NCBI RefSeq assembly: GCF_030867145.1 | Contig: NC_134453.1 | Location: 1,483,001-1,547,000 of the forward strand | Length of the DNA stretch: 64,000 nt | Source of the DNA: Opisthocomus hoazin | Taxonomy: Eukaryota; Chordata; Aves; Opisthocomiformes; Opisthocomidae | Direction of reading: 5' to 3' | Program-made: the position numbers and the translations under genes | The notes under the pieces: generated by a model | Database searches by the model: none | Seen by the model: only the letters and a program-made list of their open reading frames with translations | What the model was told of the DNA's origin: nothing | Shown: piece after piece, positions 29,409 through 62,822 of the stretch | Layout of the letters: each line of letters begins with the position of its first letter | Numbering within the stretch: the stretch's first letter is position 1

Positions 29409-31957
29409 GCTGGCTTTGAGGGGTCAACACTCACTGGCAGCACAGCGGGAGCACCGGGACTGATCCGCATGGCAGAGCGCAAGGTGGGAATAAATTCACA
29501 GCACCAGAGGAAAACAAATTTGTGTTTGAAAGAGCCTCCTCCTCAAGGCAGGAGGATGAATCTAACCACAGATGTGCCAACTTGGACAAGACAAAGCCAG
29601 ATAAGGCGATTCCCCCAAACCATCGCCGAGGAGGCAGGGATCAGGGATGAGGGAACGGAAGCAGGCGATAGCCCAGGGTGCTGCTGGTGGGGATGGCAGC
29701 ACCGAGGGGCCCCGGCAGCACGGCTGCGATAGCAGAAAGCCTTCAGACACCCCGAAATCACAACACACACCCCTTGATCATCACCCTGGAGGTACAGGGT
29801 GCACACCAGCTCCAGCTTTGCTTTCCTAATAGTCCGGCTGTGCCGAGAAAGGCTCGATTACGCTGCGGCAGGCTACCGGCTTCACGCGCCAACAGGGAAA
29901 AAATGAAACCCCTGTGAATTAATTTCACGTGAAAACTCCTCAATGCTCATTTCCTTTTGCTTTCCTACCAAAAAGTGCTTTAGTCATATATTGGGGGAAC
30001 AAAAAATAGTTTCCCAGCTACAGAAATTTAATATTTTTCTCCCAACAAGCTGATTTTCGAAGGGGAGAGGAATCCGAGCACCCTTGGTTTGCCGAGGCTC
30101 GGGCAGAGGCAGCCGGACCCTGCACGCCGGCGACCGGTCAGGCTGGCTGGCAGTCTTAGATATCTAAGATACTGCTCCCATCCTCCATCGCTAATTAACC
30201 CCCATCCTCCATCACTAATTAACCCCCATCCCACAGAGCAGGGCTGATGGCAAAGCCTGTGCCGGGGTCACTGGCCCCTATGGCTGGTCCTTGCCAAAGG
30301 GTTCCCAGGAGATGGCAGCAGGAATATTTCCATTCCCGGCGGACGGGGCAGCAGGGGCAAGCGCCCAGCCGTGGGTTTTGTCCATTAATGCTGTGGGTCG
30401 TGCACAATCTGAGTGGCTTCACAACAATTTTTCAACCCTTCAACATATATTTTACCTTTTAGTCTGCGAAGAATAGCAAAATAAATAAGAGTTACTATTA
30501 TTTAAGGAGCAAAAGTCATCTTTTTCCACCTAACGTTGCTGTATCAATGAGTCAAAGCACCCTCTCTCTCCCCTAGCCCGTGGATGTCCTTTAATTTGGG
30601 GGTTTTTTAATGCTGTGCTACGGCTTGAGACCTTGAGACACCCAGCACGTCTCTCTCCATCGGCTCCCGCCGCAGCACGAGGGAGCAGGGCACGGGGAGG
30701 CGAACCTGAGCCCCCAACCTCCCCCATGTTGGGTGGGAGCACACCGAGGCACCTCAGGTAAGAAGCTCTCCAGAGAGCCCTCACCCTGCTCACAGGGGAT
30801 GGGGTTTCGAGCAGACCGGCGTGGAGCAAAGCAGGAGGACCGAGATGTTTCTGCCCAAAGAGGAACAGGTTGTTGGACAGCCTACAACACACCTACAGAA
30901 GCGCCAGCACCTGAACCCCACTGCTTGGGGGTCTTAATGGAGTAGCTGGTAGCACTAAATAGATTGAAGAAATGTAGAATATGAACATTTCCCCAGGTTT
31001 GCTTATGTAGCAGATGCTAATCCCAGCCTTCCGTGGCCTCTCAGGGTCTGGGGACTCCATAGATCAGCTCATGGCATCAGCCTGGGGACTCATAGATCTG
31101 CAGCCTCTCAGAGTCTGGGGACTCACAGATCAGCTGGCAAAACACACATAAGAAATTCCAGACTTTTCATACTTTTAAATATTTCTTTTATAATCAACAC
31201 GATCACCCCCTTGTACTAACAGTCACTGTCCTGCTCTACACCCTTAATAACAGCACCCAGCTGGGTCAAGGACCTAGGTCTATCAAGGTGGGTTTTAAGG
31301 AGTAGCTCACAGTCAAACACAACATGGAATAAAAGCAAGATGCCAAAAAAAAGAGGCACAAGAGGCAACCCAAGCCACTCCAGCAGCAGGTCGCAGGTCA
31401 GAGCCAGCCCTAGGAGCTCCCAGCTGAGAACACCGGCTGAAACCAGGCACCAAAATATTTGGTGGGTGCCTACAAGCAACTTCTGAGCCCCACACCTTGG
31501 GACTGCAGGGCTCAGGGGACATCGCTGCCATCGAGGTAAGAGACCACAGCTTCCAGGCTGTCATCCCAGCACAGGAACATGCCAACAGCAGAACAAACCC
31601 CACATCCCCCGTCCTCAGCACGCTGCCTTTTCCCCTCTCCCAGACGGGCATCTCCCTTACCTGGTGGGTGCCTCTGGACCTCCTAAGGAGCATCTCCACT
31701 GAGAACTCAGCATTTAAACCATCCTTTTCCCAGCTGAATTATTTTAAACCGGAGCCTTGGGCTCATTGACTTCCAGCACCTGAGAAACCAGCTGGTCTCT
31801 CTCCTAACACCTGACAGCGCTTAGTGACCTAATCATGAGCCAGGTCTCCATCCCTTGGGGTGCAGGCCCAGCCCCTGGTACTGTCTGGGAGGTTGGGGTC
31901 AAGGCCAGGCTGGGTGGTGACCAGTGAGGACATGGACCAGAAAAAATACTGCTCCTG
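29409..31957. other. intergenic, with small direct repeats
   Basis: No supported gene. A 24-base unit (TCCTCCATCGCTAATTAACC plus CCCA) is repeated in tandem at 30,181-30,228. Imperfect copies of TCTGGGGACTC(C/A)ATAGATC lie at about 31,046-31,135. Confidence 0.5.
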
Positions 31958-31958
31958 G

Positions 31959-32280
31959 GAGCTCTGGTGGGACAGGAAACAGGGCAGGACCCTCTGGGAT
32001 GGTGAGCTGTGGTGGGACAGTGGAGGGGGCAGGTCCCTCTGGGATGGTGAGCTGTGGTGGGACAGATCCCTCTGCGACAGTGAGCTCTGGTGGGACAGGG
32101 CAGGTCCCTCTGGGACAGCGAGCTGTGGTGGGACAGGGGAGGGGGCAGGTCCCTCCAGGACAGTGAGCTGTGGTGGGACAGGTCCCTCCGGGACAGTGAG
32201 CTCTGGTGGGACAGGGCAGGTCCCTCTGGGACAGCGAGCTGTGGTGGGACAGGGGAGGGGGCAGGTCCCTCTGGGATCGT
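31959..32280 (+). repeat. minisatellite with 45/33/38-base higher-order units
   Basis: Eight units each begin with GAGCT(G/C)TGGTGGGACAG, at 31,959, 32,004, 32,049, 32,082, 32,120, 32,165, 32,198 and 32,236. The spacings are 45, 45, 33, 38, 45, 33, 38 and 45. The triplet of 45+33+38 (116 bases) therefore repeats as a higher-order block. All three frames are open on the plus strand because of composition, which gives W- and G-rich pseudo-proteins. I do not call these coding. Confidence 0.93.
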
Positions 32281-32281
32281 G

Positions 32282-33150
32282 GTGTCCTCAGCAAGGTCCT
32301 ATCAAGCCTTTTATGCCCAATTCCCATTTCAGGCGTGGTTTCTGGCCTTTAAAAGCAACGCTGGGCCGTGGGTTCATCATGTGACAGCAACATTTCTCCC
32401 CCTGGATGTCTTTTCTCGAAGACAACGAACAAGTCAAAGCCTCAGCCCTGCTGGGTGTGTGGTCTGGATGTTCCCAGGCCCAGCCTGAGCACGGCTGCCA
32501 ACAGCCTCCCAAAATCCCTGCAAAATCCCCCAAAACCTTCACAGCTGGGACCCACACAGCCGCTCCCTGGGCCCTGCCAGCAGCCGAGACAGCCCCGGCC
32601 CGCGGGGGAGCGTGGCAGCACCAAGTGGGGTACCCCAGGGGGATGCAGTATTTACCCCAAACTCCAAGATCTGGAGAGGAAGGTGACCTTCAGCTGGGTC
32701 AAAGCGTGGCCAGGGCACTACCGAGAACCTTGACAAGAAGTGGAACTGAATCCCAGCGATGTATTTCACGGGATCCTTGTTTATGATGTTTTGATAATAA
32801 ATCAGTAAACCACTCTGATCCCAATTCGATTTAAACCCCATGAACTAAGAATTTTGTGAGACAAGAAAACCTAAATACACCCTAACACCTGGGAAACGGA
32901 GAAAGATCTCCCTGCCTCCCCGTTGCAGCCATCCTGGAGGCTGTAATTCAATATTTACAGAAGAAGGATCACAAGAAAACGGCACCGATGCTGGTCTGGG
33001 AAATCTTCTTTGCTTCTTTTCAGCCCGATTTTTCTGGCTTCTCTCTCCCCCCCTTTTGCCCAACGCAGAGCTTCGCTGCTGCCGAGCCCACGTGCTGCTA
33101 AGGACCAAGCCTTATATACGATACGGCGGGACGACAGGGGTTATACAGAG
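32282..33150. other. intergenic, nothing recognised
   Basis: No supported exon is visible between the minisatellite and the 3' end of the bicupin gene. Confidence 0.45.
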
Positions 33151-36100
33151 CAATGGTAAAAATGACTTTAATACACAATCAAATTACGGTGCACTATAAA
33201 TAAAACATGACAATATACAAAAAGGAAATAACTTTTTACAATTAATAACCTCAAATCCTTCTTTTCTCTGAACACATCTGGATAAATAGCGAGAAAGGTG
33301 CCAAAATGTACTGCTAGAGACGTGGCGATCGCGAAAAATTCTGGGAGCCATCGACTGCTGTGAGAGGTCGCTTGCCTCATTTTTTGGCAGGCTTTGGGAA
33401 CTTCTTAAACTCGGCCTGCTCCTTGAGAAACAGCTGAGCAAGGATGTGATCTGCCGTCGCGTGGAAGTAGTCGTTCATACGCAGAGTTTCCAGCTGTGAG
33501 GAAAAAAAAGAATATTTTAAAAAGAACAGTCATAGCTATCCGATCTTATTTACGCCATTAATATGGAATATTAAAGTGCACCTCAAATCCAAGATGAGAA
33601 TGAATTCCTATGGAAGTCTGTAATGAATGAGAAGTCTTTTGCTGGGCTAGCAAGCGCGTGACCTCAGATAAACACCCCTTGCTCTGGCTCCCAGGCTACA
33701 GATTTGTCCAAGGCTTACGGGGCTTGCTCCCTGCAGACCCTCAGCCTCTCCTGTCTGCTCAAGGACAAGTCCCTCATGCACAAACACGACCTGAATTCCT
33801 TCTCTTACACACGCGGGGCCATGTCACACCCTACCACAGACCTTTCCTTTGGCTTCCCCACCTCCTTTTTCCGCGTACGGAGTTCGGATAGGTGCTGTAC
33901 GCCAACCGTCCACACCAGAAGGGAATCTGCTCTGCCAGTGTACTGATAAATTCTCAGAATTTCTTTTGAGGTGTGCACCAAAGCGTAAAGCTTATGCGCA
34001 GAAAGAAGAGAAGGCTGAGAGGGGACCTTAGAAATGCCTACAAATATCTGCAGGGTGGGGGTCAGGAGGATGGGGCCAAGCTCTTTCCAATGGTGCCCAG
34101 CGACAGGACAAGGGGCAACGGGCACAAACTGAAGCAGAGGAAGCTCCAGCTGAACCCGAGGAAGAACTTCTTCCCTCTGAGGGTGACGGAGCCCTGGCCC
34201 AGGCTGCCCAGGGAGGCTGTGGAGTCTCCTTCTCTGGAGATATTCCAGCCCCGCCTGGACGCGGTGCTGTGCAGCCTGCTGTGGGTGACCCTGCTTGGGC
34301 AGGGGGTTGGGCTGGGTGACCCACAGAGGTCCCTGCCAACCCCGACCATTCTGTGATAAGACAAGAATGAGATTACGTGCAGTTGAACATTGTTTTACTC
34401 CCTTTGCCCGTATGAATTCTCACCTGGTCTCCTGTACTGTAGGCCAGAATCAACAACAAATCCTCGTCACACACGCTCTTGATGTAATGTTGGGTTCCGA
34501 CAGGGAAAAATATGACGTCTCCAATGCCGATGTTGAAGTTGGCAGTGACTCCAGAGAGAATGACCCCGACCTATTGCAAGCAAAGCAGCAATATGCAGCC
34601 ACGACAGTTTCCGGCGCGCTGTTACTGGATAAATACAGAGTGCTGGTCCCGGCACCGCGCTCACTCAGCTAGCGTAGCGTCGGTGGGTTCTCTGAGGCTC
34701 CAGAAAGGCAGAGGGCTCCGAGGCAAATTCCGGAGTAAGAACGTGGTAAGGCCTTACTACAGAGCCTCATCATTCCGTCTCAATTATCTCCCCACTTCAG
34801 AATATCACAGAATATCACAGAATAGTAGGGGTTGGAAGGGACCTCTGTGGGTCACCCAGTCCAACCCCTGCCCAAGCAGGGTCACCCAGAGCAGGCTGCA
34901 CAGCACCGCGTCCAGGCGGGGCTGGAATATCTCCAGAGAAGGAGACTCCACAGCCTCCCTGGGCAGCCTGGGCCAGGGCTCCGTCACCCTCAGAGGGAAG
35001 AAGTTCTTCCTCATGTTCAGACGGAACTTCCTGTGCTTCAAAATTGCACGGAGTGCAACACATAATTCCTGTACTCTAAATCTTAATAATCACTAAATTT
35101 TCTCATTTATCTGTTCCTCACAGGTGCTAAATCAAAAGTATTACTTTATTATTACTTTATTTGGTACCCCCAGCTTTCAGGAGAGTAGGGGTTGCTGTAA
35201 TAAGCACGTGTGGTTTTGCTGAACGACTTAAGATGGACAAGTTCTGCTCTTTGCATAACTCCTTGACTAGAGAAGCTTCCACAAACATAACCGAGATCAA
35301 CATTTCCTACGGAGAAGGGAAGTGTGGACACGGAACGTTCCGTAATGCTACTGATCGTAGTAATATTAATCAGGGCTGGGAATCAGTTATTAGGTAGGTC
35401 CTTCCCCTCTACTCTGCCCTAGTGAAGCCCCATCTGGAGTCCTGTGTCCAGTTCTGGGCTCCCCAGTTCAAGAAAGATGAGGAGCTACTGGAGAGAGTCC
35501 AGCGGAGGGCTACGAGGATGAGGAGGGGACTGGAGCATCTCTCCTACGAGGAGAGGCTGAGGGAGCTGGGCTTGTTCAGCCTGGAGAAGAGAAGGCTGAG
35601 AAGGGACCTTAGAAATGCCTCTGAATATCTGCAGGGTGGGGGTCAGGAGGACGGGGCCAGACTCTTTCCAGTGGTGCCCAGCGACAGGACAAGGGGCAAC
35701 GGGCACAAACTGAAGCAGAGGAAGCTCCAGCTGAACCCGAGGAAGAACTTCTTCCCTCTGAGGGTGACGGAGCCCTGGCCCAGGCTGCCCAGGGAGGCTG
35801 TGGAGTCTCCTTCTCTGGAGATATTCCAGCCCCGCCTGGACGCGGTGCTGTGCAGCCTGCTGTGGGTGACCCTGCTTGGGCAGGGGGTTGGGCTGGGTGA
35901 CCCCCAGAGGTCCCCTCCAACCCCAACCATGCTGTGATTCAGTGATTCTGTAACAGTTTCAGAGCCAGAACTCCACTGATTTAGCCCTCCCCCATGTACC
36001 AAATTACCTGTCCACAGCCACTAATGACATAACCCATCTCGTTAGCGTTGAAGTGGAAATGCGGCTGCCCCAGTCCATTGCTGAATATCCGGAGGGTTGC

Positions 36101-39100
36101 TAAGGTAAGCGTATTTTCATGCTGAAAAGCAGAACAAAAATGTTCTGAAAACCATGCAAGTTTGATTTATGCCTGTTACACATGACAAAGCAGTGATGAA
36201 CCCACACGAATTGCGTGCTGCACCTTATGTTCAAACAGCTAGAGCACCCAGCAAAGCACATACCTTGTTCAGTGACTCACTAAAAATTTTTTCTGTTTCA
36301 TTTAGTCCAGTGCCATTTATGCGGTAGCGAGCCCACTGGAAGATTCCTCCGGGAAAAGGATATTCGGCCGACCCTGAAGCAGAGACAGCTAATGAGCATT
36401 GCCACCAAGCCTGGGTTAACACTGCCTGTTTGTGTCCTGGCCACCCCCAAGTCACTACTACGTACTAAACGTGAGGCCTCCAATCTTACCAGCCTCTGGA
36501 ATCAAAAAGAAAGCCCATTTAGCTTATCTGTCCTATACATTAAACACTGTGCAACCTCCTTTATTGTATTTTTCCGTAGCCAGATAATCATAATGAAAAA
36601 CTGTGGCTAGATGTTTTCCATCCCAAATTGCTATCAATAACAATACACTTAAAGAACATGCTTTCAGTCTCTCAATCCACATTAACCTTTACAGCACTGA
36701 CAATATTTTGTAAAGTGCTGCCAATGCAGAAGAACATTTTGGTCCAAGAGCAAAGATTTCGGTCACACATCTGTTTCTCATGACCTCCATCAGCTGCGTG
36801 TGGAGGTCAGGGCCCATATTTGCTTTTTATAGCTTTTTGAACGGACTGTACTACTTGGAATTAAGTTTTGCCATCTATGTTTATTAGCTGCACACTGACA
36901 AGCACTAGATCCAGGCTGTACAAAGGGTTAATACAATCATTGATAAACCAAACAGTGAATATGGTTCCAGGCGGTTTATGAAGTTGTATTTGTAGAAGAA
37001 AAGGCAGCACATAATTAGGTATATGTTAAGGTGCTTATTCATTGGCATTTCATAAGCAAACACGAGATATTCTAAGCAGCTCAGCACCAGTCACTCTCCA
37101 GCTAATCTGCTGCAGGGCTTCCTGGCCTATAAGATTTTAATTTCTGAATGAAAAGTTTGGGTTTAGATTATTGCTTAACTTTGCTGTAGCAGGGAACACA
37201 CCAGTCCTAGTTCAGCACATCAGCAGAGAACCTTGAGCGGGAAGGTATTCAGTTCATGCCCTGCTGCTTACTGGCATCCTGCTCTCTTATCTACTGTGGC
37301 AGATAGAAACATTTAGGGCTATGAGGATGATGAGGGGACTGGAATATCTCCCCTACGAGGAGAGGTTGAGGGAACTGGGCTTGTTCAGCCTGGAGAAGAG
37401 AAGGCTGAGAGGGGACCTAATATATACTTAGAAATATCTGCAGGGTGGGTGTCAGGAGGATGGGGCCAAGCTCTTTTCAGTGGTGCCCAGTGACAGGACA
37501 AGGGGCAATGGGCACAAACTGAAGCAGAGGAAGCTCCAGCTGAACCCGAGGAAGAACTTCTTCCCTCTGAGGGTGACAGAGCCCTGGCCCAGGCTGCCCA
37601 GGGAGGCTGTGGAGTCTCCTTCTCTGGAGATATTCCAGCCCCGCCTGGACGCGGTGCTGTGCAGCCTGCTCTGGGTGACCCTGCTTGGGCAGGGGGTTGG
37701 GCTGGGTGACCCACAGAGGTCCCTTCCAACCCCTACTATTCTGTGATTCTGTGATTCAAATCAAAAGGGTAAACTACTTTGAGATAAAGAATCAGCTTAG
37801 ACATCTTCAAAGGGCAGTAATTCGATGTACTACCAATATATTTTTCATTTTATCTCCTTAAATTCTTATTATTTCCCTATATAATTTTTAACTCCCATTT
37901 CAGTGAATTGATTACAGGTCTCTTCTCCCCCTCTGGAAACACAGCGAGCTCTTAGACACAAAATTCCTAGATGTCTACCTTTGAGATTGTAGAAGTACTG
38001 CCATACAAGGCTGTCCGGAGACTGCACGTAGGTGGCATTTTGTACAAGCTCATCTAAGTTGGGCGGGAGGTTAACTGCTTGATCTTCCGCTTGTTTCTTG
38101 AATGTCCTGATGAAGTTGACTCCACCTTGTGGCTGCGGGACACACGATGCACACGAAGTTGACAGAGACGCACAGCAAACTGAGGAAATTCAATTTTGTT
38201 TCGTTGAATATCCCACCTCAGTACCCGGTGGTAGACAAGTTCTGCCTCGTGGACATACCTCATCTCTTTGATTGCCTCGCCCTGCCAATACTCCACTCCT
38301 TTGCTCTGCTCTTCCTTCTCAGTTACCAGAGAGACTTGGAGCAGAAGGGAAATCTGATCCATCTCCCATCAAACTGTTGCAGGGTGGGAAGGTCTATCAC
38401 AAATCTGTGGTTTGAACATGCAAATTCCTGAGGCTCAGCAGAAACTCTGTGGCCATATTCTTGCTCACGGGACACTGTCAACTGGTCAGTTCAAATAAGC
38501 TCCATTTCAACAAGGAGATGGACTTATCTATAGTTTCCTATGAGCTCTGCTCATACCACAGAATTCATCATGGGGCTATTGGGAAATTAGCTTTGGGCTT
38601 CACTATGGTGTTTTCCCTTCCACCCTTGGAAATACGGAGGGATCCTCCATGAATTGAGGATGAAAGCGAAACGTGGAGGAGAAAAAGTTTCTTGGTGAGT
38701 ACACCATCATTTCTTTCTCCTTGTGTATAAAGGAACAGACAGGATGGCACAGTGTGACACAAAGGACATGCGTACATCCTTCGTGGTCATGGGAGCAAAG
38801 AGGACAGCTGAGGTAGGGAGGATCCTCTCCAAGAAATACAGAGAGCACCTGCACGGCCACGTTAGTGTGTAGAAGACTGGACAGAGGCTGTCTGTCCTAC
38901 CATACAGACCTTTAATGCTCTGGCTGCTATATCCTCTGGGGTAGAGAAAAAGGCGTCATCTACATCCAAGGTCTGAAGTTCTTCATGTGTCGTAAAAAAC
39001 AGCAAGAACACACAGTCTTCTGATCCGACGTTCTTTATCCAATGCACGGTGTTTCTAGGGAAGAAGATCACTTGACCAGCTGTGACGTTGTATGTGGTGA

Positions 39101-42100
39101 CCACACTGTCATCTGCACCAATTACTCCAATCCAGGCAGTACCCTGCAACATAATCAGAACTTATCATCATCAAAGGTTTCTCATTTAATCTATACGCAG
39201 CAAATCAGTAATTCAAATAAGATGAAGGCTGTTAAGGAGAAAACAGTTCCTCATGCACTCTCTAACAAGCCTTTGTGAACTTAAATCCAGGATAGCATTT
39301 TAAGTGACAAAATTTTAGAAGGTTTAAGGAACACATGACAAATCTGCACTGCTCGTACTTAAACCATTTCTTATTAAAGAGGCTGTGAACAGCTAGAAAG
39401 GAGTCATCTTTGACCAGAAGCTGCTGGAGAGAAGACCAGGTGTTTGTGGAATGCCTTACTCCAAGGATGATCCCCCATCCAGCTGGGGCTGTTCAGTTCT
39501 GTGCTGATCAAAATATGAATAATTATTCTTAGAAATAAACTAATGCTCGAGATGTATCTAAGTACCTATGCTTCCAAATAAAGATAATTTTGTTTTCAAA
39601 TTAATATACTAACTGGAATCCTTACAGTAAGTTTCTGTTTATCTCTTGTATTTTCTTTGTTTTTACAAATTTGATGCTCACGTGAGATAGGGCAAACCTT
39701 TTCAAAGAAAACTGATTGCAGGGGTATTTGGTCTAGGAAAGAGAAGACTTTATGAGAACAAAACAGTCTTCCATGTACAAAAAGTTGTGTGAAAGAAAGA
39801 TGATCCAAGGGTCTCCACAGCCAATGGGGATAAACAAGGAGAAATTAGGATGATTTTTTTTTCTTGCAATAAAATAAAGTGTGGTTTGTGTACCAGCACA
39901 AACTTTCTAATGGTTCGTGTGATGAAACGTGGGAGACAACTATTTTTTGATTTTGTAATAGCTCCCTTGTTGAAGATTTTAAAAAACTGAACACAACTCT
40001 CAGATGTGCTTTAGGTATTCTTACCCTGCATCACCACAGTGGATGGAGCCAGAGGCTTTCTTCAGAACCTTAACAGTCCTTAATCACTGTGATTCTATGG
40101 TGGCTCCATAATATAATTACTTTAATCATTGTAAGCACTTGGATAAGTACATAAAATTCTGTAACTTTCAGGTATCCAAAGTCTCCTCTGACCTCAGTTT
40201 TTACGCTTCACTGGAAGCTGCAGGTGTGTGGTCCTCTTGCAAGTAATAACATTAAACAGCATATTTCAAGCATCTCCATTTGAAAATGTTATTTCAAGCA
40301 AGAAAACTAATGACAAACATCAATCAATGGTAATTCTGCTTTCATTACCTGTTAACACTTTTATATAATGATTATGAAATTTTTTTCACATACATACATC
40401 TTCTATATATACATGATGCTTTAAACTGCAAGAGCAGCTGCGAAAGCTGAAATAATCAGACAATACCTGTAGCAGGTAGCCATGTTCATTGGCATTAAAA
40501 TGCCAGTGGGGAGCCCGAAGCCCTTTGCTCTTGATCCGTAAGGTTCCAAAAGTCATTTTGGAGCGATGGTTATTGATACTTTTTCCAAATACCATTTCTT
40601 CATCAGTTTGATATTCGTTTACATCATTCCTGAATCTTGCCCACTGAATTTCACCACCTGGGTAGTTATATACCTGTAAAGTTAGTGAGAGGGGAGAATT
40701 GTATTAATTGTGGACAGCAGTGCATAAAGATTCCAAAAATATTTTAGAAAATTCTCGGTCTGGGCAATACTGAAGGGACCTATCCGTTTGCTCATTGAGG
40801 ATTCTCTCTGTATGTATTTTAGTCACTTGTCACAATCATTTATATACTTCCTCATGTCGTGATGTAATAGTATTTTTTCTACAAATGAGAGAAACAGTGA
40901 TATCAAGAACAAAATTCTGGACTTTGATTTGAGAAATCAGTTACATATACGCTTAAACTTTTAGATTAAAAACATTTAGAACATGCCACAAGTAGGGCAT
41001 TTTCCTGAATTTCTACAGTTGCAAAATATTTGCACCTGAATCTGTCCTTTCCCCAGTATTTGAACTGCCTCCAGAACATGTTTTGTACTTGGCAGCAGCA
41101 TCTTGCACTGAGGAAGGACATGTAAAAAGGGTTGCTCTCCTCTTAAACACTTTTGTTTGAATTCTTAAAAACATTTTTCATTTGAAAATGAATTCCGCAG
41201 TTAAGTCTCACATGAAAGAGTGCCAGAATGGCTGTTGCCAGTTTCAAGTGCCCTACTATCTAATCTATCCTTTTCCCTCTTTTGCTGAAAAGCAAAAATT
41301 TATCAGGAATTACTTTTTGTATAAAGATATATTTAGAAGATGGAAAATGTCTCTAGAGTTTGCTCAAAGGATACGTTTCTCTAAGTATCAAAATACACCT
41401 AAACGAAACCTACATCATTCCTAGGGCTTTATTACATTGTCAATTAATTCATTTTAGCTCACTGAAACAAGATCATGGAATTCATTTTTTCTTGCAGTAT
41501 AAGAATTTGCTTGAATCCAGTCCTAAGAATGAAAAGGTTAGTGTGCTACTCCGCTTACATTAAGATTTGAACTTTCTACTTTTGTTTCTCGGCATGTCAT
41601 ACTCTAATTTCAGAATCATGCATAAAATGGTTGCCTTGTCTTGCAAGCCCAATTTGTTGGAGCAATTATTTACCTCTCCAAGAGGCACTCGAGAGATCCC
41701 TACCATCTCCAACATCTGTTATGAACTGGAGTGAAACACTGTCAGGAAGATTGTGTTTCTCCCCACGGATTATAAAAGAAGCCTGGATAAGAAGTTTAGA
41801 CTGATCACCTAATGCTTGGAAAAGATCTAGGGGAAATTTGTTCATTAAACTTTTATATATGATGCTAGAATATTATTGCACAAGTTGAACAATTTACCTT
41901 TGAGTTTCCCAGATGATTCAGGAACTGGAATTTGACATCCACACTTTTTTCATCTGGTTTCGGGGAAGATGCACCGTTGTCTTCAACACCCACCGCTCTC
42001 ATAAAGGCCGTGTTCTGTACATAGACCAAGGACAGGACCAGCACTCCTACTGCGGTGGTGATAACACAGGCCAACAGGCAAACTAGAAAGACTTTCATTA

Positions 42101-43996
42101 GGGACCAGTTGCCTTTTCTCTCCTGAAATTAATAAAAAGCCCCCCAAAACAAAAAAGAAAGCTTGATTAGATTTAACTTCTTTTGTCAACAAAACAGTAT
42201 GCCTTTCAGAAACACAGGTATAGCCAAATTATAAGGTTTCCCTGTACTAGGCCCAGTAGAGTATGCTATCGGATTGTTGCTGTCCTTTCATGATTTCATC
42301 AAGTAGAAGCACGTCTTCATCATCCTGGAGTCTTACAAACGCTTAAAGATTTTTTCCATTGCTGTTTTGAATCTATATCACAAAACACTGAAGACCTGTA
42401 GCATCAACTCATGGCAAACTTTTGCCTCTGGGGCAGAAATGCTGCCTCTGCTTTACATCACATCTCGCATGGCCCACCTCCCTGGCAGAGGAGAAGACAG
42501 GCCAGAATGGGGAAAACTTCATCTCTACTAACTGCTCTGGGCATCATTTCTTTACAGAAAATTTCCTTCCTGGACATTCAGGCCTCTGGAGGAGGCTGCA
42601 GGGGAGAAGCAGCTGGGCACACAGAAGCACACAAGTTCTTTGCAGAAAGCCAAGGCGCTTCTGGCACCATGAAGCATCACCTTGGTGAGGTTTTTCAGCA
42701 TTTCCTGTCCCTTGACCTTTTTTGCTGCCGAAGTTGCAGCTTCAGATGAATAGAGACTGCATTCTCTGGCCCAAATTTTAAAACTCTTTAGTGATTGTGG
42801 GTGCACAGCTTGATCGACCTTTAAAAGCCTGATTTTTCAGATGGTGAGTGCCTGAAAAGAAGCTATGAACGTTGATTTCTTAAGCTGGACAATTCGAAAT
42901 GAAAAAAAAAAATCGAGGATTACTTGCTGATTTTAACAAAATGACTGTTTTCATAAGTCTATTTGACAAAAGCTCTTTACAAATACATTTCTCTTGCCAG
43001 CAGAAGAGCGCTCAAAATATCATCCTATTCTATTCGGTAACAACCTTTTCTTCAGCTTTTCAATGGCTCATTTTTTAAAGCTTGTATTCAATTAAATATC
43101 ACAACAGTAGTGCTCAGACCACAGAGTCTCATCAGAGAAGAAGGCTTTAAAGTTAAACGCATTCAAAATCCCCATTTTCCAGATTTGAAGGACCTTTAAT
43201 TTACAGCATTTTCACAGCAGTGGCACCAATTCAGCAATTATTTTTGAAGTCGAAAGAACGCTGTATGTGTTGCATAATAATAATAACTAATGTAGAACAT
43301 TCAACCCCAGCACAACGGCGTGGAGTGAGTTACGCTGTGAGGAAATCACTAGGCTTTGGTATATTCATTGCCAGGAAGCAGCGCTGTGTTGACTGCAAAC
43401 AAATGCAACGGCCGATGAGCAACACGCCAACTCCTATTGCATGAAGTTAATTCAAATCCCAAGCAGCAAAAACTTTAATGGGAAAATTATAGAGAATTAC
43501 TTTTCTCAAGGGGAAAAAAAAAAGAAAAGATGAAACAGTACTCTACTGTGTAACTCAGTAGATACTAAAGATTACCACAAGATGAGCTTTTAAGTAGCTC
43601 TTTCTGTTAAAATCAACGGGGAATCCTCCCAAGATAATTATTTTGTCCAGTAGTTAGAGGATAAAGAATTTAGCTATTAAGTGAGGCCAGGGAATGATGT
43701 CTCAGTTCGGATCTAGCTAGTGCACAAGGACCTTAGCAACTGTAGCCCTTCAGAGCTTTGATTTTATTCAGGGCCTTCTTAATAGTATAGCATTAGGCCA
43801 TACGTACAAAATAAGGGGTTTAATCTACAGACTGACTCTGTTAATAATGTTTTGATTGCACTGTAAAAAAAAATGACTGGTACCTCTTTCTTCAGCCACT
43901 CTTTTCCTTTTGAAGAACTTTGTATGCTCTCTCCATGCATTTCAAATGCCTGGTTATCCATTTCGTAAAGCTGAAATAGATTAGCCCACAGAAGAC
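33150..43996 (-). CDS. DYNAP: DYNAP-position gene: membrane-anchored bicupin (oxalate decarboxylase-like), 461 codons
   Basis: Nine coding exons on the minus strand join without a frame break: 43,961-43,884, 42,122-41,898, 40,673-40,467, 39,143-38,910, 38,132-37,979, 36,373-36,264, 36,121-36,008, 34,570-34,424 and 33,493-33,377 (TGA). All junctions are GT-AG and phase 0, except exon 5/6 (phase 1). The predicted protein has a cytoplasmic tail (1-34), a membrane span (about 37-61), a stalk, cupin 1 (about 102-248) and cupin 2 (about 300-461). Both cupins carry HxH(x)4E and a later His, the usual Mn/Fe ligands. Basic residues before the span predict type II topology with the cupins outside the cell or in the lumen. 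Four N-x-S/T sites (189, 280, 319, 324) agree. The span exon resembles human DYNAP as I remember it, and gene order and strand beside C18orf54 agree. The enzymatic activity and substrate are unknown. Confidence 0.93.
33167..33172 (-). terminator. candidate polyadenylation signal ATTAAA
   Basis: ATTAAA on the minus strand about 205 bases after the bicupin stop codon. It is the first usable hexamer I see and would put the transcript end near 33,150. Confidence 0.45.
33377..33493 (-). CDS. DYNAP: bicupin gene exon 9: C-terminus and stop
   Basis: 38 codons and TGA (33,379-33,377). [20 protein letters not shown] is the expected closing helix of cupin 2, followed by a Lys-rich end ([10 protein letters not shown]). 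The acceptor has a strong pyrimidine tract (CTTTTTTTTCCTCACAG). Confidence 0.93.
   Translation of the reverse strand: METLRMNDYFHATADHILAQLFLKEQAEFKKFPKPAKK
34003..34358 (+). mobile_element. CR1 LINE copy in bicupin intron 8
   Basis: It starts at GAAGAGAAGGCTGAGAGGGG and runs open to the ORF2 end. A single tail unit (ATTCTGTGAT) ends at about 34,357. It is antisense to the host gene and only 66 bases from exon 8. Confidence 0.95.
34424..34570 (-). CDS. DYNAP: bicupin gene exon 8: cupin 2, second metal motif
   Basis: 49 codons (375-423). [18 protein letters not shown] gives G(x)5PxG(x)2H(x)3 with ligand His402; the final Asn of the motif is Ser406. A CR1 insertion ends only 66 bases past the donor. 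Confidence 0.94.
34802..35041 (-). mobile_element. CR1 LINE 3' fragment in bicupin intron 7
   Basis: It begins with ATCACAGAATATCACAGAAT (tail side, with ATATC-type variants) and ends in ORF2 at GGAACTTCCTGTGCTTC. It is the one insertion lying in the same orientation as the host gene. Confidence 0.94.
35396..35953 (+). mobile_element. CR1 LINE copy in bicupin intron 7
   Basis: It starts at GTCCTTCCCCTCTACTCTGC, is open for about 170 codons, and has tail GTGATTCAGTGATTCTGTAA. It ends about 55 bases from the donor of exon 7. Confidence 0.95.
36008..36121 (-). CDS. DYNAP: bicupin gene exon 7: cupin 2, first metal motif
   Basis: 38 codons (337-374). [20 protein letters not shown] is a complete HxH(x)4E(x)6G motif with His357, His359 and Glu364. 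The FNANE core is identical to that of cupin 1, showing that the two halves are homologous. Confidence 0.95.
36264..36373 (-). CDS. DYNAP: bicupin gene exon 6: start of cupin 2
   Basis: Two bases complete Gly300, then 36 codons (301-336) beginning [27 protein letters not shown] repeats the start of cupin 1 (exon 3). Two sequons, NGT and NET, lie at Asn319 and Asn324. Confidence 0.94.
37314..37758 (+). mobile_element. CR1 LINE copy in bicupin intron 5
   Basis: It starts at AGGGCTATGAGGATGATGAG and has a small disruption near 37,418-37,430 (ACCTAATATATACTTAGAAA) and an octamer tail to 37,757. Confidence 0.94.
37979..38132 (-). CDS. DYNAP: bicupin gene exon 5: linker between cupins
   Basis: 51 codons plus one base (249-299 and part of 300): [13 protein letters not shown] through [20 protein letters not shown]. 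It has an N-glycosylation sequon (Asn280). The donor is in phase 1, the only non-phase-0 junction of the gene, and exon 6 supplies the two missing bases. Confidence 0.93.
38910..39143 (-). CDS. DYNAP: bicupin gene exon 4: cupin 1, second metal motif
   Basis: 78 codons (171-248). [17 protein letters not shown] is the second cupin motif, G(x)5P..(x)2H(x)3N, with ligand His204. Asn stands where the motif usually has its second Gly. The tail [12 protein letters not shown] matches the helix that closes the first cupin in oxalate decarboxylases. The donor is GTCTGT, weaker than the others in this gene. Confidence 0.95.
40467..40673 (-). CDS. DYNAP: bicupin gene exon 3: cupin 1, first metal motif
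   Basis: 69 codons (102-170) starting [14 protein letters not shown]. The first cupin motif is [19 protein letters not shown] followed by G in the next exon, i.e. HxH(x)4E(x)6G with ligands His157, His159 and Glu164. Confidence 0.95.
41898..42122 (-). CDS. DYNAP: bicupin gene exon 2: membrane span and stalk
   Basis: 75 codons (residues 27-101), phase 0 at both ends. KGNWSLMK leads into the hydrophobic stretch [20 protein letters not shown], then a hydrophilic stalk with [10 protein letters not shown]. The span and the WS motif before it resemble the transmembrane segment of mammalian DYNAP as remembered, including the CLLAC core. Confidence 0.9.
43884..43996 (-). CDS. DYNAP: bicupin gene exon 1: start and cytoplasmic tail
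   Basis: ATG at 43,961-43,959 has a good context (GAAATGG), giving [11 protein letters not shown] and a Lys-rich end WLKKE before donor GT at 43,883. An acceptor-like TTTTCCAG precedes 43,996, and TTTCAG lies nearer the ATG. The exon is therefore probably preceded by an untranslated exon not located. The frame stays open upstream without an ATG, so a longer N-terminus from an upstream exon is possible. Confidence 0.75.
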
Positions 43997-54700: not shown

Positions 54701-57700
54701 CTTACATATTTCGGGCACTCTCAGAAATAAATACTCAGTTTTACTGACCTTATTTTTGTCACTTAAACAGTCTTCCAAGAATTTATGTATGATATCTGCC
54801 TTGGGGAACGGTAGAGCATTCTCCATGTCCTCACAGCACACAGGCACTGGTGGTTTGCTAAACCAACATTAAACATGCAATGAAGAATAACAACAGGTTT
54901 ATAAACTAAAAGAATTGTTTCAGGATATAGTCATTGTATGAAACCAGGTATCTTGCATCACTGCATCACCAAGGGGGCACTGAGGAGTCCTGTCAGCACT
55001 TTGGTGCATGCCAGAGAAACACGTAACTATTTTTTCAGGTTTTGTCAATATAATCAAAACCTGGGCAGCCATAAAAATCAACTAAAAAACCTCCACAAGA
55101 CAAGGACTTCTTAGCTATAATTTATTATACATGGGTATTTTTCTTATACCTGGCACTCCTCCATTAATATTCAGCATTAAACAGCTACCTTCTGCTTACT
55201 GACCTCTAATTCTTCTAAAGTCTCTAAGGTATTTTAATTCAAAGGTAGTAGTCTCCTAGAAACATACAGTAATGAAGCCTGATGTCCAGTGATGTTCTCC
55301 TACGTGGGTATTCTGGTGGCTAGCAGGAGGTCAGGTTATTAGCCTCTGTCTAGAGGAGCATGAATAGTACCAGTCCTACTATCACATGCCAGAATGCTGC
55401 AGTTTGAGACTTACTCATCTGTTAAATATTGGTGGAATTAGCCAATAGTTCCAAATCTTCTGGGGTAAAGGGCAACTGACAGACAACATCCAGACCCACA
55501 TACATCTAGCTTCTTAAGAAATATAGGAAACTAGGAAATTCTAGTATTGATTTTTAGCATTCTTTGATGCTGTGAAATAAACTTTCAGTTCCTGAACAAT
55601 TGAAAATTCACTCCCAAGGCTGCTCCAAAACTTCCCAAGGCCACACCACTTTTTTTTTTTTAAATGGACTTCCTACTATTGTTTTTCATAAACTATTAAA
55701 TCTGTCCACTTAAGTTCCATTACATAATTTTTCTCTTGAAATATATTTGTATATCAATGATATATAAGATATATTATTAAAAGGCAGTAATAAGTAATAG
55801 TGATAGCACTCTCTGCAAGTCAATGAAAAACGGAAAGCAGTGCACCAATACCCTGACCTAGAAATATCAAACATTTAGCACTAGCAAGAAAACTAACAGT
55901 AAATCCCTTCTTTATGTACATGCCACACCACCATTACCTAGAACCTATACACAAAAGCAACTAAATACATTATTTTGGACTAATTTGTTTGTGAAAACAC
56001 ATACATGTTTACTTACAAAGCACCTGGAGCATTCTCCCACGATCTTTCTGCTCCGAGTATATCTGTTGTGGAAGGACTGCCATCATTTTCCAGATTATTT
56101 GACAAACCTTCAGGTGAACTCTCCAGACCTCTGTCAGCCTTCCACATAAGTAGCTCAAGCTGGGCTTCTGAAACACAAGGGCACAATGTGCGAAACCGTC
56201 TTCAAGGGCATTATTTCCACATTACTTTCAATTTTATGTAATAATCACTACAGATGAATTAGCTCTGGAAATATTTTACAGAGAGCATAGCCTCAATACA
56301 ACTCCTTTGGTTAGCTTGGTATGGCAGTATGGCATGTGGCTCATCAGTATCAAACGGGATCTGCAAGGTTCTAGCCAGGAGAGTATTTAAATTAGCCAAG
56401 CATTTCTTTTCCTAACTTAGGTAAAACAAGTATCATATGCAGCATTCAAGATTATTTAACATTTTTAGTGTGCTTTCATGCTATAGAAAAACACAATATT
56501 AATTCACAATACAATGTTAAATATTACTTATTAATACTGCAAGTTCTTCAGTTAGTGTTCCTATTATTTTGTACAGGTTCTTCTAATAGCTGCTTTTACA
56601 GACACCTGGAGAGAAATCATGCAACATGTACACACAAATCACACATACAATCACATACAGGACTCACATTTAAAAACAGGTTGAGACAAACACTCAAAAT
56701 GACAGGCACAGTCTCACATATCTTTTTTCATACCTAGCCTGTTCATTATTGGTAAACTTTTCTGTTAGGGGGAAGAAAAAGCTATAACCCTATATTTAAA
56801 GTTCATCATGCGTATACATCAGAAAGCTATTCACAGATGTTTGTATACCCAGCATTTTGTTGCTTTGAATTCACAACATAAACAACATTTTCACTTAGTT
56901 TTTACATATAACCTCTTGGAAAAAGGGACAGATCATTATTTATGCTTTGCATGACAAAGAAAAAATATTTTTCTTTTTGAATAAACAAACTTAGACAGAA
57001 GTGAAGGTAATTAACCCTTTGAAATGTTAATCTCATATCAAAGTAAATCTTGCTGATATTTAATAAAACAAAGATGGTGCTTCACCACAGGAGGACCTCT
57101 CTGCTTCTGCAGGGTGATGGCCTGCTGCAAAGAGTAGCTACATGACAGATGCCACAGAAACTCTTTACATAAACTAAAGGCACTGCATAACCTAAGTATA
57201 TAAATATTATTATTTATATATTTAGTTATAAATATCTGCTGCTGACTGTTTAAAGTTGAGAAAACGACTGCACAATAAATAGTATTTTTTACCAATTTGA
57301 CAGTTTTGTTTACACTATGTTTAGGAAACTCTCTCCCCAAAGGTTACACTGTGTGATTTAATGCTTGAAATTCTATTAAAATATTTATGGAATTACTGTC
57401 ATTATCTTGCAGTAAAGTACTAAATATGCCAACTTAATAAAGACTTTGTTGTAAAAGGGATGTTTAAATATTGATTTATATATGAAAACTTACAGTATTA
57501 AAGCTGGTTAACTTGGTCAACTACTAGTAAGTGCTTTGAGTCATTTGTCAAAGATGGAAATGAATAAGCCTACTGGACAGTGCAGTCAGACTAGCATAGC
57601 TACAGAGTGTTGGTTTAAAAATGTACATGTCTTTAGACACATACCCTCAAAATGAAAAAAATCAAGTTGTATCAATTCTAGTTACCTCTGAACCGCTTTT

Positions 57701-60700
57701 TAGCATGTCTGGAAAACAAGTTAGCAAATGGGAAGCATGTATTTGGACTGCCATAGCTGCAAGTTCCTTTTACTTTGTTCTCACCTCTCAGATCCAGGCA
57801 ACCACTTTGTTCAAAAAAATTAGAACTGTCTTTATCTACAAAGTGTCTTTTTTCCAGGATCTCAGAATTCTGTGAGGAGGAAGCTTTGCCTTGTGTATTA
57901 AAATTTTGACCATCACTTTCTTTAGTTGGATCAGAAAAAAGGTTGTAACTCTTGAGCCAGACTGGGTAGTGAAAATTGGGAATACTCCTTATCCCCGATA
58001 CACTTAAGTCAGACTTCTGACTGGTAATCCACCTTGGATAATTCTTGAAAGCGTTAGAGTTCTCTTCAAAAGACAAGGGTCTCAAACTTCCTTTAGAGGA
58101 GACAGAATCGTACTTATCAGGCGTAGACACATTGTGTTTCTTTCTGCGGAAGTCTTTGTCTGGATGCTGGTGAGCAACAGCTTTCCCATTCTCCTGGAGA
58201 CTGAAACCGTTTTCAGTTGTGAGCGATGAGGTTTGGTAAGGGCAGAAAGATGTTTTAAGTGGCTGTCTGCTCCACTCAGTACTTCGATGCCTTGATTTAA
58301 AAGGACTATGCTGGACAACGGGCAGCGATCCATCTGCTGGAAATGCTAACAGATCATCCGTCGCAAGACTCATCAAGTCTAGGTCACACTCCGTCTGCCT
58401 TCTGGAGGGTGAAGCAAGAGAACCCGATCCTACGTGCTGATCAAAATCATCCAGTGCTGAAAAACAAAGATATTTTACATGAGCTGCTAAACTTCAAGCA
58501 TACCAAAAGGATACATTCGGAAGATCCAGCATGAAGTAGTAATTTAAAGCTGAAATATGTTATTTACCAGTGGGTACCAAATTACAGTTCTTACAAGAGT
58601 GGTTCCATTTCTAATCAGAAGCTTGCTAAAAACCTTACAGGTCAAAAGCTACCCCTCCTTTCATAGCACAAAGCATTTACAGTTTTGTGTATTTTCTTTA
58701 TTTTTTTCTTGAAGAGAAGAAAGAAATCTACATTCCATTCTTGGCTGCACATTCAGAATTCTATATTTTGCAAGTATGTCTTCAAGCATTTCAGTCCTAG
58801 TAGCGACACTCCCTCCACACAGTAATGTTAGGGATGACTCCCTCATATTGACATCAAGCACATTTACTAGGAAAAAAGTCTAAAAACAATAGCCTGAAAG
58901 GCAGATAACCAGATAATGGGCCTCTAGACCCATTTTGTGATTCTGCAGAAACTTATGCTGTATAAGATTTGACTGGGCAGTTTTTCCAGGAAGAATTACA
59001 GCATTAAATCCCTTTTTTTTACTGCAGCTATGAAGCAATTTGATTCACAAAAACAGGTTTTCTTCAGCTAGCACCTGGAAGTTATTTTTTCTCACCTTCA
59101 CTGTAATATCAGTAAGCGAAATCTGTATACTGCAGACTATTATAACATACAAAACGTACATGCAGAATAGCTAACACGTGAACGGAGCTAATGAGCCTTC
59201 TGCAAAGAACAGCAATGGAGAAATTTCAAAGTAAAATATGAGATGACACATTTTCTTTTAGTGATAATCAGAATTCTTATTTTTGTTTTGGAAATCAGTT
59301 AAACATCAGTAGAAGATTGTTTGTATTAGAAAAACATAACCCGATATAGCCCAGCTAAAAAATGCCCGTCTCAATAAGAGAAAAGAAAGGTGTGAAGAAA
59401 AAAAAAAGCCCTTCATAATATGATACACTACCATAACTGTCCATGCCAACACAACCTAGGCAAGCATCCTTTTTCTGATACAAAGTTTGCCTGTACTTGG
59501 GACTTAATTATTTTCAATGTAATGGCCAAACCATTTGCAATATAAATTAGCTCAAGCATAGTTATCACTTAAATGCTTACGTATTCAAGCTCACTAATAG
59601 TGACAAAAACCAATTCAAGCCCATATACATTAATCATTTGGGTTAGACTTCAGACCCAAAAGTACATTCCATAAAAATCAAATGTATGAGAGGCAAATTT
59701 TGTTCTAAGACAAAGCAGTGTTTAAAGGAACTCCTTCAATTAATTAGCTTCTGATACTTACTCTGGAAAGGAAACAGATTTTTTTTCAAGACTTGGGTTT
59801 AAGCAAGGATTTACACTATCTCTAGCATATATTCACATATAGAAAATACAAGTTTATTCCATACTCTGGAATTTATTATTGCATTTATGAGCGTGGTCAC
59901 GAGTTCTCACCAATCCACCAAGCTTCTACAAAAAAGCATTAAATAATGACAAATACTGCTAGACATAGCCAAGCATCATTTACTATACCATAAAGACTTG
60001 AAAGCAGTTGTGCAAGGAACATTCCTTCAACCAAACACAACTGGTGCGAGACAAGGAGATGCAATACTATTGGCAATGAAAAAAAAAAAACCACCACGAA
60101 AAACAGCAAACACCAGAACTTACCAAAAGGCATATTTGCAGAAGACATACCATGTTTTTCTCTGGCAAGGCGCTTTGAAAACCTCACTTGTTTGGGAGTG
60201 CTTTGAAATATGCAGATTTTTCCAGTGCTTGTTTCTGAAGATGTCAGACTTAGATCAAAATCTTCAATATAAGCCTCCAGAGCTTCAGATGCAGAGCTGT
60301 AAAGCTTGTCCTTGTAGTGAATCAAACTGTCTGAGTATGGATTATTGCTGTCAACGCTATAACTTGTTAGAAGAGAAGATATTGTCGAGTCAGGAGAGGT
60401 GATACTGCTTTCTTTTATTGAGCTTGTCATGGTTTTTATCCAGATTTCTATCAGAATCTTCACTCATCTTTTTAATCAATCTAAACAGATAAAGAAAGAA
60501 CACCGCAAGTGATCATCTACACTGAAATGACTTCTCACAAAAACTGTAATGTATCTAGGATTTTTTACTTATGCCATGTTATTATTTTCCTAAAAATTAC
60601 TGTTTACCTATTCAGCTTGCTGCTTTTCAAATAAGTTTGTCATATATATTCGCCACCACTAGAAAAGTAAAAGGCAGAAAATTAGGGCTTTGGGAGAAAA

Positions 60701-62529: not shown

Positions 62530-62822
62530 GTAAATGGACTATAAGAAAGCTGCCGATGAAGTTGCGGAAAAAATTTTATTGTACAGTCAAGATACTTCAG
62601 GATGGAGAGTGATTAAAGTTTCAGTAAGAAAATACTAGTTAATATTGTGTATGAAGTTATTTTTATTAACTACATTTTGTTGCAAAAAGTGTTTAAAACT
62701 GTTTTCCTTTAAGAAATAGTTGACAACTCTTTATCAACTGCTAAGTTTTTATTTTCTTTTTTCTGCTTTGAGAAAAATGTTACCGTTTCTTCAAAGCCTT
62801 CAAAAGAGTATGAAGGAAATAT
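62530..62822 (+). CDS. STARD6: STARD6, N-terminal coding exons (gene continues beyond window)
   Basis: The exon at 62,530-62,623 has ATG at 62,534 and encodes MDYKKAADEVAEKILLYSQ then DTSGWRVIKVS. It splices in phase 0 to 62,773-62,822, which reads KNVTVSSKPSKEYEGN and ends in phase 2 at GTAAGT. DTSGW and ITVSSK-like residues match the start of STARD6 as remembered, a START-domain lipid-binding protein of about 220 residues expressed mainly in germ cells of mammals. Only 46 codons plus 2 bases are here. I did not find the next exon before 64,000. The second acceptor is the unusual TTTGAG, with a long T-rich tract before it. Head-to-head position with C18orf54 supports the call. Confidence 0.9.

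Follow-up and report, generated by a model that had tools for sequence, protein, structure and literature searches.

Human DYNAP (dynactin-associated protein, C18orf26), which has been studied in cancer cells, is described there as a membrane protein of unknown physiological function (PMC4540312). Published descriptions give it a length of 210 aa and a mass of 22.5 kDa (PMC8329785; the length also in PMC4540312) and a type II orientation with the C-terminus outside the cell, and report that it binds dynactin and drives phosphorylation of Akt at Ser473 (PMC8329785, PMC4540312). According to PMC8329785, the human protein ends within the exon that encodes its membrane span. A table of the human region gives the gene order POLI, STARD6, C18orf54, DYNAP and RAB27B (PMC4868023), and two papers on the loss of DCC in birds have placed a gene named DYNAP in this block, in birds as well as in other amniotes (PMC5327406, PMC5327424). 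One of these papers reports DYNAP in the transcriptome data of all Galliformes species examined and counts it among five genes that were salvaged in Galliformes, and evolve fast there, once the block had been disrupted (PMC5327406); in contrast, the other lists DYNAP among the genes missing from the block in galliforms and passerines (PMC5327424). The words cupin and oxalate are absent from the main texts of both. A further study lists DYNAP among genes expressed in the embryonic right ovary of the duck (PMC10332064).

We analysed a stretch of 64,000 nucleotides of the hoatzin genome (Opisthocomus hoazin, GCF_030867145.1, NC_134453.1, forward strand, 1,483,001 to 1,547,000), which is called the window below and in which all positions are counted unless a contig is named. 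A gene on the minus strand, running from 43961 to 33377, was found to consist of nine exons with GT-AG borders throughout, and the spliced frame is uninterrupted over 1386 nt, or 461 codons followed by TGA (Table 1). Seven of the eight introns are in phase 0, and intron 5 is in phase 1. The chance that all nine stretches of these exon lengths would be open was about 2e-8, as a product over random non-exon sequence of the same region, a figure that leaves the splice sites and the homology out of account. An ATTAAA hexamer is located at 33172, 204 nt past the stop codon. At the other end of the gene, the start codon and the 5′ exons are uncertain because an acceptor-like TTTCAG ends 9 nt upstream of the predicted ATG.

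Table 1. Features of the bicupin gene and its neighbourhood, in window coordinates.
Feature	Position	Strand	Description
Exon 1	43884..43961	-	aa 1-26: cytoplasmic tail, with predicted start (codon provisional); open in second copy
Exon 2	41898..42122	-	aa 27-101: basic stretch, CLLAC span, stalk; phase 0 on both sides
CLLAC domain, aa 32-60	42021..42107	-	Pfam PF15675, E 1.9e-15; span common to DYNAP
Exon 3	40467..40673	-	aa 102-170: cupin 1, with Arg154, His157, His159, Glu164
Exon 4	38910..39143	-	aa 171-248: cupin 1, with His204 and lid Glu225/Thr228
Exon 5	37979..38132	-	aa 249-299 and first base of codon 300: inter-cupin linker; ends in phase 1
Exon 6	36264..36373	-	Start of cupin 2; PGG..QWAR motif in common with cupin 1
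Exon 7	36008..36121	-	aa 337-374: cupin 2 ligands His357, His359, Glu364; Gly354 versus Arg in relatives
Exon 8	34424..34570	-	aa 375-423: cupin 2, with His402
Exon 9	33377..33493	-	aa 424-461 and stop
Open frames labelled C18orf54 by the sequence-only reading	57678..60463	-	Label not confirmed by family search
STARD6, first coding exon	62534..62623	+	Divergent neighbour; next exon starts near 62773

The encoded protein has a short tail, a single membrane span and then two cupins. When the spliced protein was compared with Pfam, it matched Cupin_1 (3.7e-34, in two stretches), Cupin_2 (2.5e-16) and CLLAC (1.9e-15), and its strongest hydrophobic segment, with a hydropathy peak of 2.87, is at aa 37-55. 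The membrane-anchored bicupin that a sequence-only reading of this DNA had proposed is thus confirmed by the family matches to the span and to the cupins, and the nine-exon, 461-codon frame of the same reading stood up as well, with its GT-AG borders, its open frame and a second intact copy, which is described below.

One repeat is present in both orientations in introns 5, 7 and 8 (33925-34358, 34813-35040, 35506-35886 and 37315-37747), with further copies at about 1.4-25.5 kb of the window; we take these repeats to be, most likely, the ends of CR1 retrotransposons. Between the bicupin gene and RAB27B, at 31804-32384, several frames are open, with highly repetitive translations that point to a minisatellite. 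A search of the window against Rfam gave no match.

The neighbourhood was evaluated using probes for RAB27B and STARD6, and the latter was also located by means of a PDB match (2mou, E 2.6e-12). Further exons of STARD6 extend to 68905, past the end of the window, and RAB27B is on the minus strand, 16-27 kb past the opposite window edge and about 49 kb from exon 9. Lying between RAB27B and STARD6, the bicupin gene therefore occupies the place of DYNAP. The gene order and strands given by the sequence-only reading hold as regards the divergent STARD6, and RAB27B lies beyond on the same strand as the bicupin gene; its label C18orf54 was not borne out, as family searches with the frames at about 57.7-60.4 kb gave no match above cut-off.

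To establish how many such genes the bird has, the CLLAC and Cupin_1 families were searched against the whole hoatzin genome (1.48 Gb in 415 contigs), and it is on these two family searches that the description as a single locus rests. CLLAC had only two matches above the cut-off, and these are the two copies of the bicupin locus; a sub-threshold match on contig C6, with 23.1 bits, looks like chance. A distinct DYNAP elsewhere, which the sequence-only reading had counted as evidence against itself, was looked for in this way, and no separate CLLAC gene above the cut-off was found in the genome. Cupin_1 above its cut-off likewise gave only the two copies of the bicupin locus, by exon 4 of each, and because this search found one exon per copy, other cupin genes with split exons could be missed by it.

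The two copies are on contigs C40 (50.4 Mb, which holds the window) and C41 (91.3 Mb, with the copy near 89.80-89.84 Mb), and they are 99.275% identical across 37,094 bp. The C41 copy has all nine exons with no frameshift or early stop, and its splice sites are kept, as checked over ten flanking bases per border. There are six coding differences between the copies, three silent and three replacing (residues 23, 70 and 263, outside the cupin cores), and this 3:3 ratio of silent to replacing changes (p 0.19) shows no purifying selection between them. On both contigs the locus is about 1.5 Mb from an end, and the pair looks like Z and W, which would share an end that still recombines, a pseudoautosomal region. 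Large arrays of a repeat of about 570 bp are found at 2.78-3.62 Mb of C40, consistent with a W or a centromeric satellite, and further copies of this repeat occur on C10, C14, C25, C27 and C30 and on a large number of small contigs.

The relationship of the membrane span to that of human DYNAP was evaluated with a human sequence that we take to be correct (210 aa, with a calculated mass of 22.5 kDa, as published). Against CLLAC, a family that Pfam presumably built around DYNAP, this human sequence scored 63.0 bits (1.8e-17), and the bird protein scored 56.5 bits over its whole length and 59.3 bits over its first 101 aa, relative to a Pfam cut-off of 25. Direct alignment of the bird exon 2 with the human sequence gave a score of 116, compared to a maximum of 63 in a background set by 2000 block shuffles in which the hydrophobic block was preserved, and a tblastn search of the window with the human sequence matched exon 2 at an E of 3e-9. 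Therefore, the DYNAP-like character that the sequence-only reading had seen in the span is upheld by a common family and by an alignment beyond the shuffled range. The exon structure agrees in part: bird exon 2 begins in phase 0, five codons before a Trp in common with DYNAP, and human exon 3 also begins in phase 0, as calculated from the exon sizes in PMC8329785, eight codons before the shared Trp on the human sequence used, so that the two start borders are close and not identical.

On the outer side of the span, the Ser/Thr-rich tail of the DYNAP type is absent from the bird protein, in which the outer part consists of the cupins, and reading through the exon 2 donor gave ten residues and then a stop, with no Ser/Thr tail. 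The missing tail does not exclude orthology because such a tail is known from human DYNAP only. Taken together, the span, the gene structure, the position and the genome-wide exclusivity identify the bicupin gene as the avian DYNAP ortholog.

The cupins were compared with known bicupins. The protein matched oxalate decarboxylases in the PDB at an E of 6.9e-17, and it scored 102.2 bits (3.2e-29) against the NCBIfam bicupin_oxalic model TIGR03404, below the cut-off of 254.2; it is therefore a relative of this family that falls under the membership threshold. Relatives were fetched with patterns that included H-x-H-x-N..E or HYI, or similar, and that left the lid outside, and the ligand counts accordingly lean upward: Arg154, His157, Trp158, His159, Glu164 and His204 of cupin 1 each agree with 86/86 of the relatives fetched. 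The lid residues Glu225 and Thr228 agree in 77 and 80 of the 86, within a lid that reads EELQT in the bird as opposed to the bacterial ENST type. Because the 86 relatives include near-duplicates, we also give the count for a non-redundant 35, in which the cupin 1 Arg and metal ligands agree in 35/35 each, Glu225 in 27 and Thr228 in 29. In cupin 2, the ligands His357, His359, Glu364 and His402 are kept (85/86 relatives each, with one gap), whereas Gly354 stands where 85/86 relatives have Arg (the other having a gap) and Phe358 where 85/86 have Trp. We take the site 1 Arg, lid Glu and lid Thr to correspond to Arg92, Glu162 and Thr165 of Bacillus OxdC, and the two Trp positions to its Trp96 and Trp274.

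Judged by these residues, site 1 in cupin 1 is intact and oxalate-decarboxylase-like, with the metal ligands, the Arg and the lid Glu and Thr all present, and in cupin 2 there seems to be a metal site but no substrate site. The sequence-only reading had spoken of a full oxalate decarboxylase-type double cupin. The two cupins and the site 1 residues agree with that description; the absence of the Arg and Trp from cupin 2, the score below the TIGR03404 cut-off and the pairing of the two bird cupins with each other in trees do not.

This pairing bears on how the double cupin originated. The two bird cupins are 44% identical (66/151 positions), in an alignment that begins 11 residues inside exon 2. 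The best 80 of at least 551 confirmed prokaryotic candidate loci were all at most 29% identical to the bird protein, 49 plasmid records matched it (24.9-27.6% identity among the 15 matches listed, collinear through both cupins), three loci on viral contigs matched at 25%, and the phage records gave no match to the bird bicupin. With the best prokaryotic loci at no more than 29% and the viral ones at 25%, a recent horizontal acquisition from any of the bacteria and viruses sampled was rejected. Permutation of the domains was also considered, as a local alignment to the PDB pairs cupin 1 with cupin 2 of OxdC, but no permutation is claimed because the plasmid bicupins match both cupins in order and in one piece.

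Since the bird cupins are 44% alike and at most 29% alike to the bacterial relatives fetched, the bicupin may come from a duplication of its own. Trees were built from 26, 24 and 30 proteins (the bird included) of a 36-row set, with each protein split into its two cupins; the 24-protein tree was made without five Chlamydiota and Alicyclobacillus rows and still contained the Chlamydiota row L068, and the 30-protein tree was made without all six. In the three trees, the bird cupins pair together with 99-100% bootstrap and 94-97% SH-aLRT support, on branches that are both long. A topology with all first cupins as one clade was not rejected by the AU test (p 0.0585 for the 24-protein set and 0.119 for the 30-protein set). 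The pairing would mean a separate duplication in the line of the bird protein, or homogenisation of its cupins; a separate duplication is likely, in that the trees favour it, and the AU tests leave the classical duplication standing. Some Chlamydiota and Alicyclobacillus bicupins (L019, L021, L049, L053 and L065 in the 26-protein tree, L068 in the 24-protein tree) fall outside the main split between first and second cupins, a hint that the family may have undergone duplication more than once. Two further candidate signs of duplication were set aside: a shared stalk, in which the end of exon 2 would repeat the end of exon 5, was dropped when 1616/5000 shuffles were as good, and shared introns were not used as proof, the exon 3/4 and exon 7/8 borders being about four codons apart.

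With respect to function, the bird cupins should face the outside of the cell or the Golgi lumen because the protein has the same span as the type II human DYNAP, with basic residues before it; it would thus be a type II single-pass protein with its C-terminal bicupin on that side of the membrane. N-glycosylation sequons past the span number 4, relative to about 3.3 expected, and this lack of an excess gives no support to an outside location. In cupin 1, the ligands His157, His159, Glu164 and His204 would most likely bind Mn (or Fe), and the site, which also includes Arg154 and the lid residues Glu225 and Thr228, may cleave or oxidise oxalate or another small carboxylate. Cupin 2, having kept its ligands and no substrate Arg, probably has a structural or electron-relay role.

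We consider it probable, all things weighed, that the gene is the avian DYNAP ortholog and encodes a type II protein with an outer metal-binding bicupin, that cupin 1 acts on a small carboxylate, and that the cupin exons were dropped in mammals. The catalysis in this proposal is putative but plausible. An ectodomain that is not an enzyme, and that serves as a receptor or sensor for a metal or a ligand, cupin 1 being conserved for structure or binding only, has a real though lesser chance of being correct: it is in keeping with the absence of both Arg and Trp from cupin 2, the TIGR03404 score, the departure of the cupin 1 lid from the bacterial sequence, the matches that were also obtained to the 11S seed storage globulins of the cupin superfamily, and the signalling of human DYNAP without any cupin (PMC4540312). 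However, cupin 1 has the full set of metal ligands together with the Arg and the lid Glu and Thr, which would be beyond the needs of folding. As to the direction of change, the most economical reading is that mammals lost the cupins from a bicupin ancestor. In the mammalian line the span exon would have grown to include a short tail rich in Ser and Thr, with the cupin exons being dropped, and loss of the exon 2 donor with extension of the exon would yield the mammalian form of DYNAP. A more far-reaching version, which we regard as tentative and on balance rather doubtful, is that non-mammalian vertebrates would have a cell-surface, Mn-dependent bicupin that cleaves oxalate or another carboxylate and arose by its own duplication, and that mammals would have kept the anchor stump as an orphan signalling protein and given up oxalate handling.

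The opposite direction, in which the sauropsid line gained cupin exons by fusion, downstream of an ancestral gene for a short CLLAC protein as in mammals, draws on the fact that the vertebrate evidence comes from this one bird. We think it unlikely, as the eight introns, the identity of at most 29% to the best 80 prokaryotic relatives and the 44% between the cupins indicate that the cupin part is old, and loss by running past a splice donor would be simpler than gain. Human DYNAP stops in its span exon (PMC8329785) and the gene model rests on DNA, so that two transcription units are conceivable in principle, with a short DYNAP-like product from exons 1-2 and a bicupin gene of exons 3-9 that has a start codon to itself. 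This arrangement is very improbable: the phase-0 donor of exon 2 fits exon 3, the read-through of that donor yields ten residues in place of a Ser/Thr tail, and no alternative ATG exon of 15 codons or more with a phase-0 GT[AG].G donor turned up when intron 2 was scanned. That the locus is a pseudogene, a contaminant or an artefact of assembly might be suspected from its presence in two copies in the assembly, and it is scarcely credible given that the nine exons are open in both copies, that the introns contain repeats present in several copies and that the flanking genes agree with vertebrate synteny.

In the open-access literature, we found no description of a vertebrate bicupin or of cupins in DYNAP, a result that does not establish their absence; the cupins of avian DYNAP may well be visible already in automatic annotations. 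The avian gene at this place is named DYNAP in papers on synteny. The anchored double cupin that it encodes places the cancer-linked DYNAP in an evolutionary context and points to an ancestral chemistry that can be tested, and it suggests a possible passage from an enzyme to an enzyme-less protein in mammals. To our knowledge, enzymes of the oxalate-decarboxylase-like kind are known only from microbes, fungi and plants, and if cupin 1 is active, the bird protein would be an animal enzyme of that otherwise microbial, fungal and plant kind. Humans, unlike some microbes, are described as unable to break down oxalate (PMC7485683); the loss of cupin 1, provided that it is active, would be relevant to this inability.

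A comparison with known systems places the bird protein between several of them. Sll1358 of Synechocystis (PDB 2vqa), a bacterial periplasmic Mn protein that we take to be MncA, resembles it in being a bicupin (E 1.2e-14) and differs in having no CLLAC span. The 11S globulins and the germin-type oxalate oxidase have the Cupin_1 domain and are among the PDB matches, but these matches are weaker (7e-9 and worse), and the proteins are from plants and have no CLLAC span. OxdC and the TIGR03404 family share the tandem cupins and, in site 1, the His/His/Glu/His ligands, the Arg and the lid Glu and Thr; in contrast to them, the bird protein is membrane-anchored, is 21-29% identical to the relatives fetched, has a bit score under the family cut-off, lacks the Arg and Trp in cupin 2 and has cupins that are most like each other. 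Human DYNAP is alike in its CLLAC span, its position between STARD6 and RAB27B and the start of a phase-0 exon a few codons before the span. In the human protein of 210 aa, about 100 residues are cytoplasmic, and the outer tail, for which the span exon codes, is short and rich in Ser and Thr (PMC8329785, PMC4540312), whereas the bird protein has a short inner tail and carries two cupins outside.
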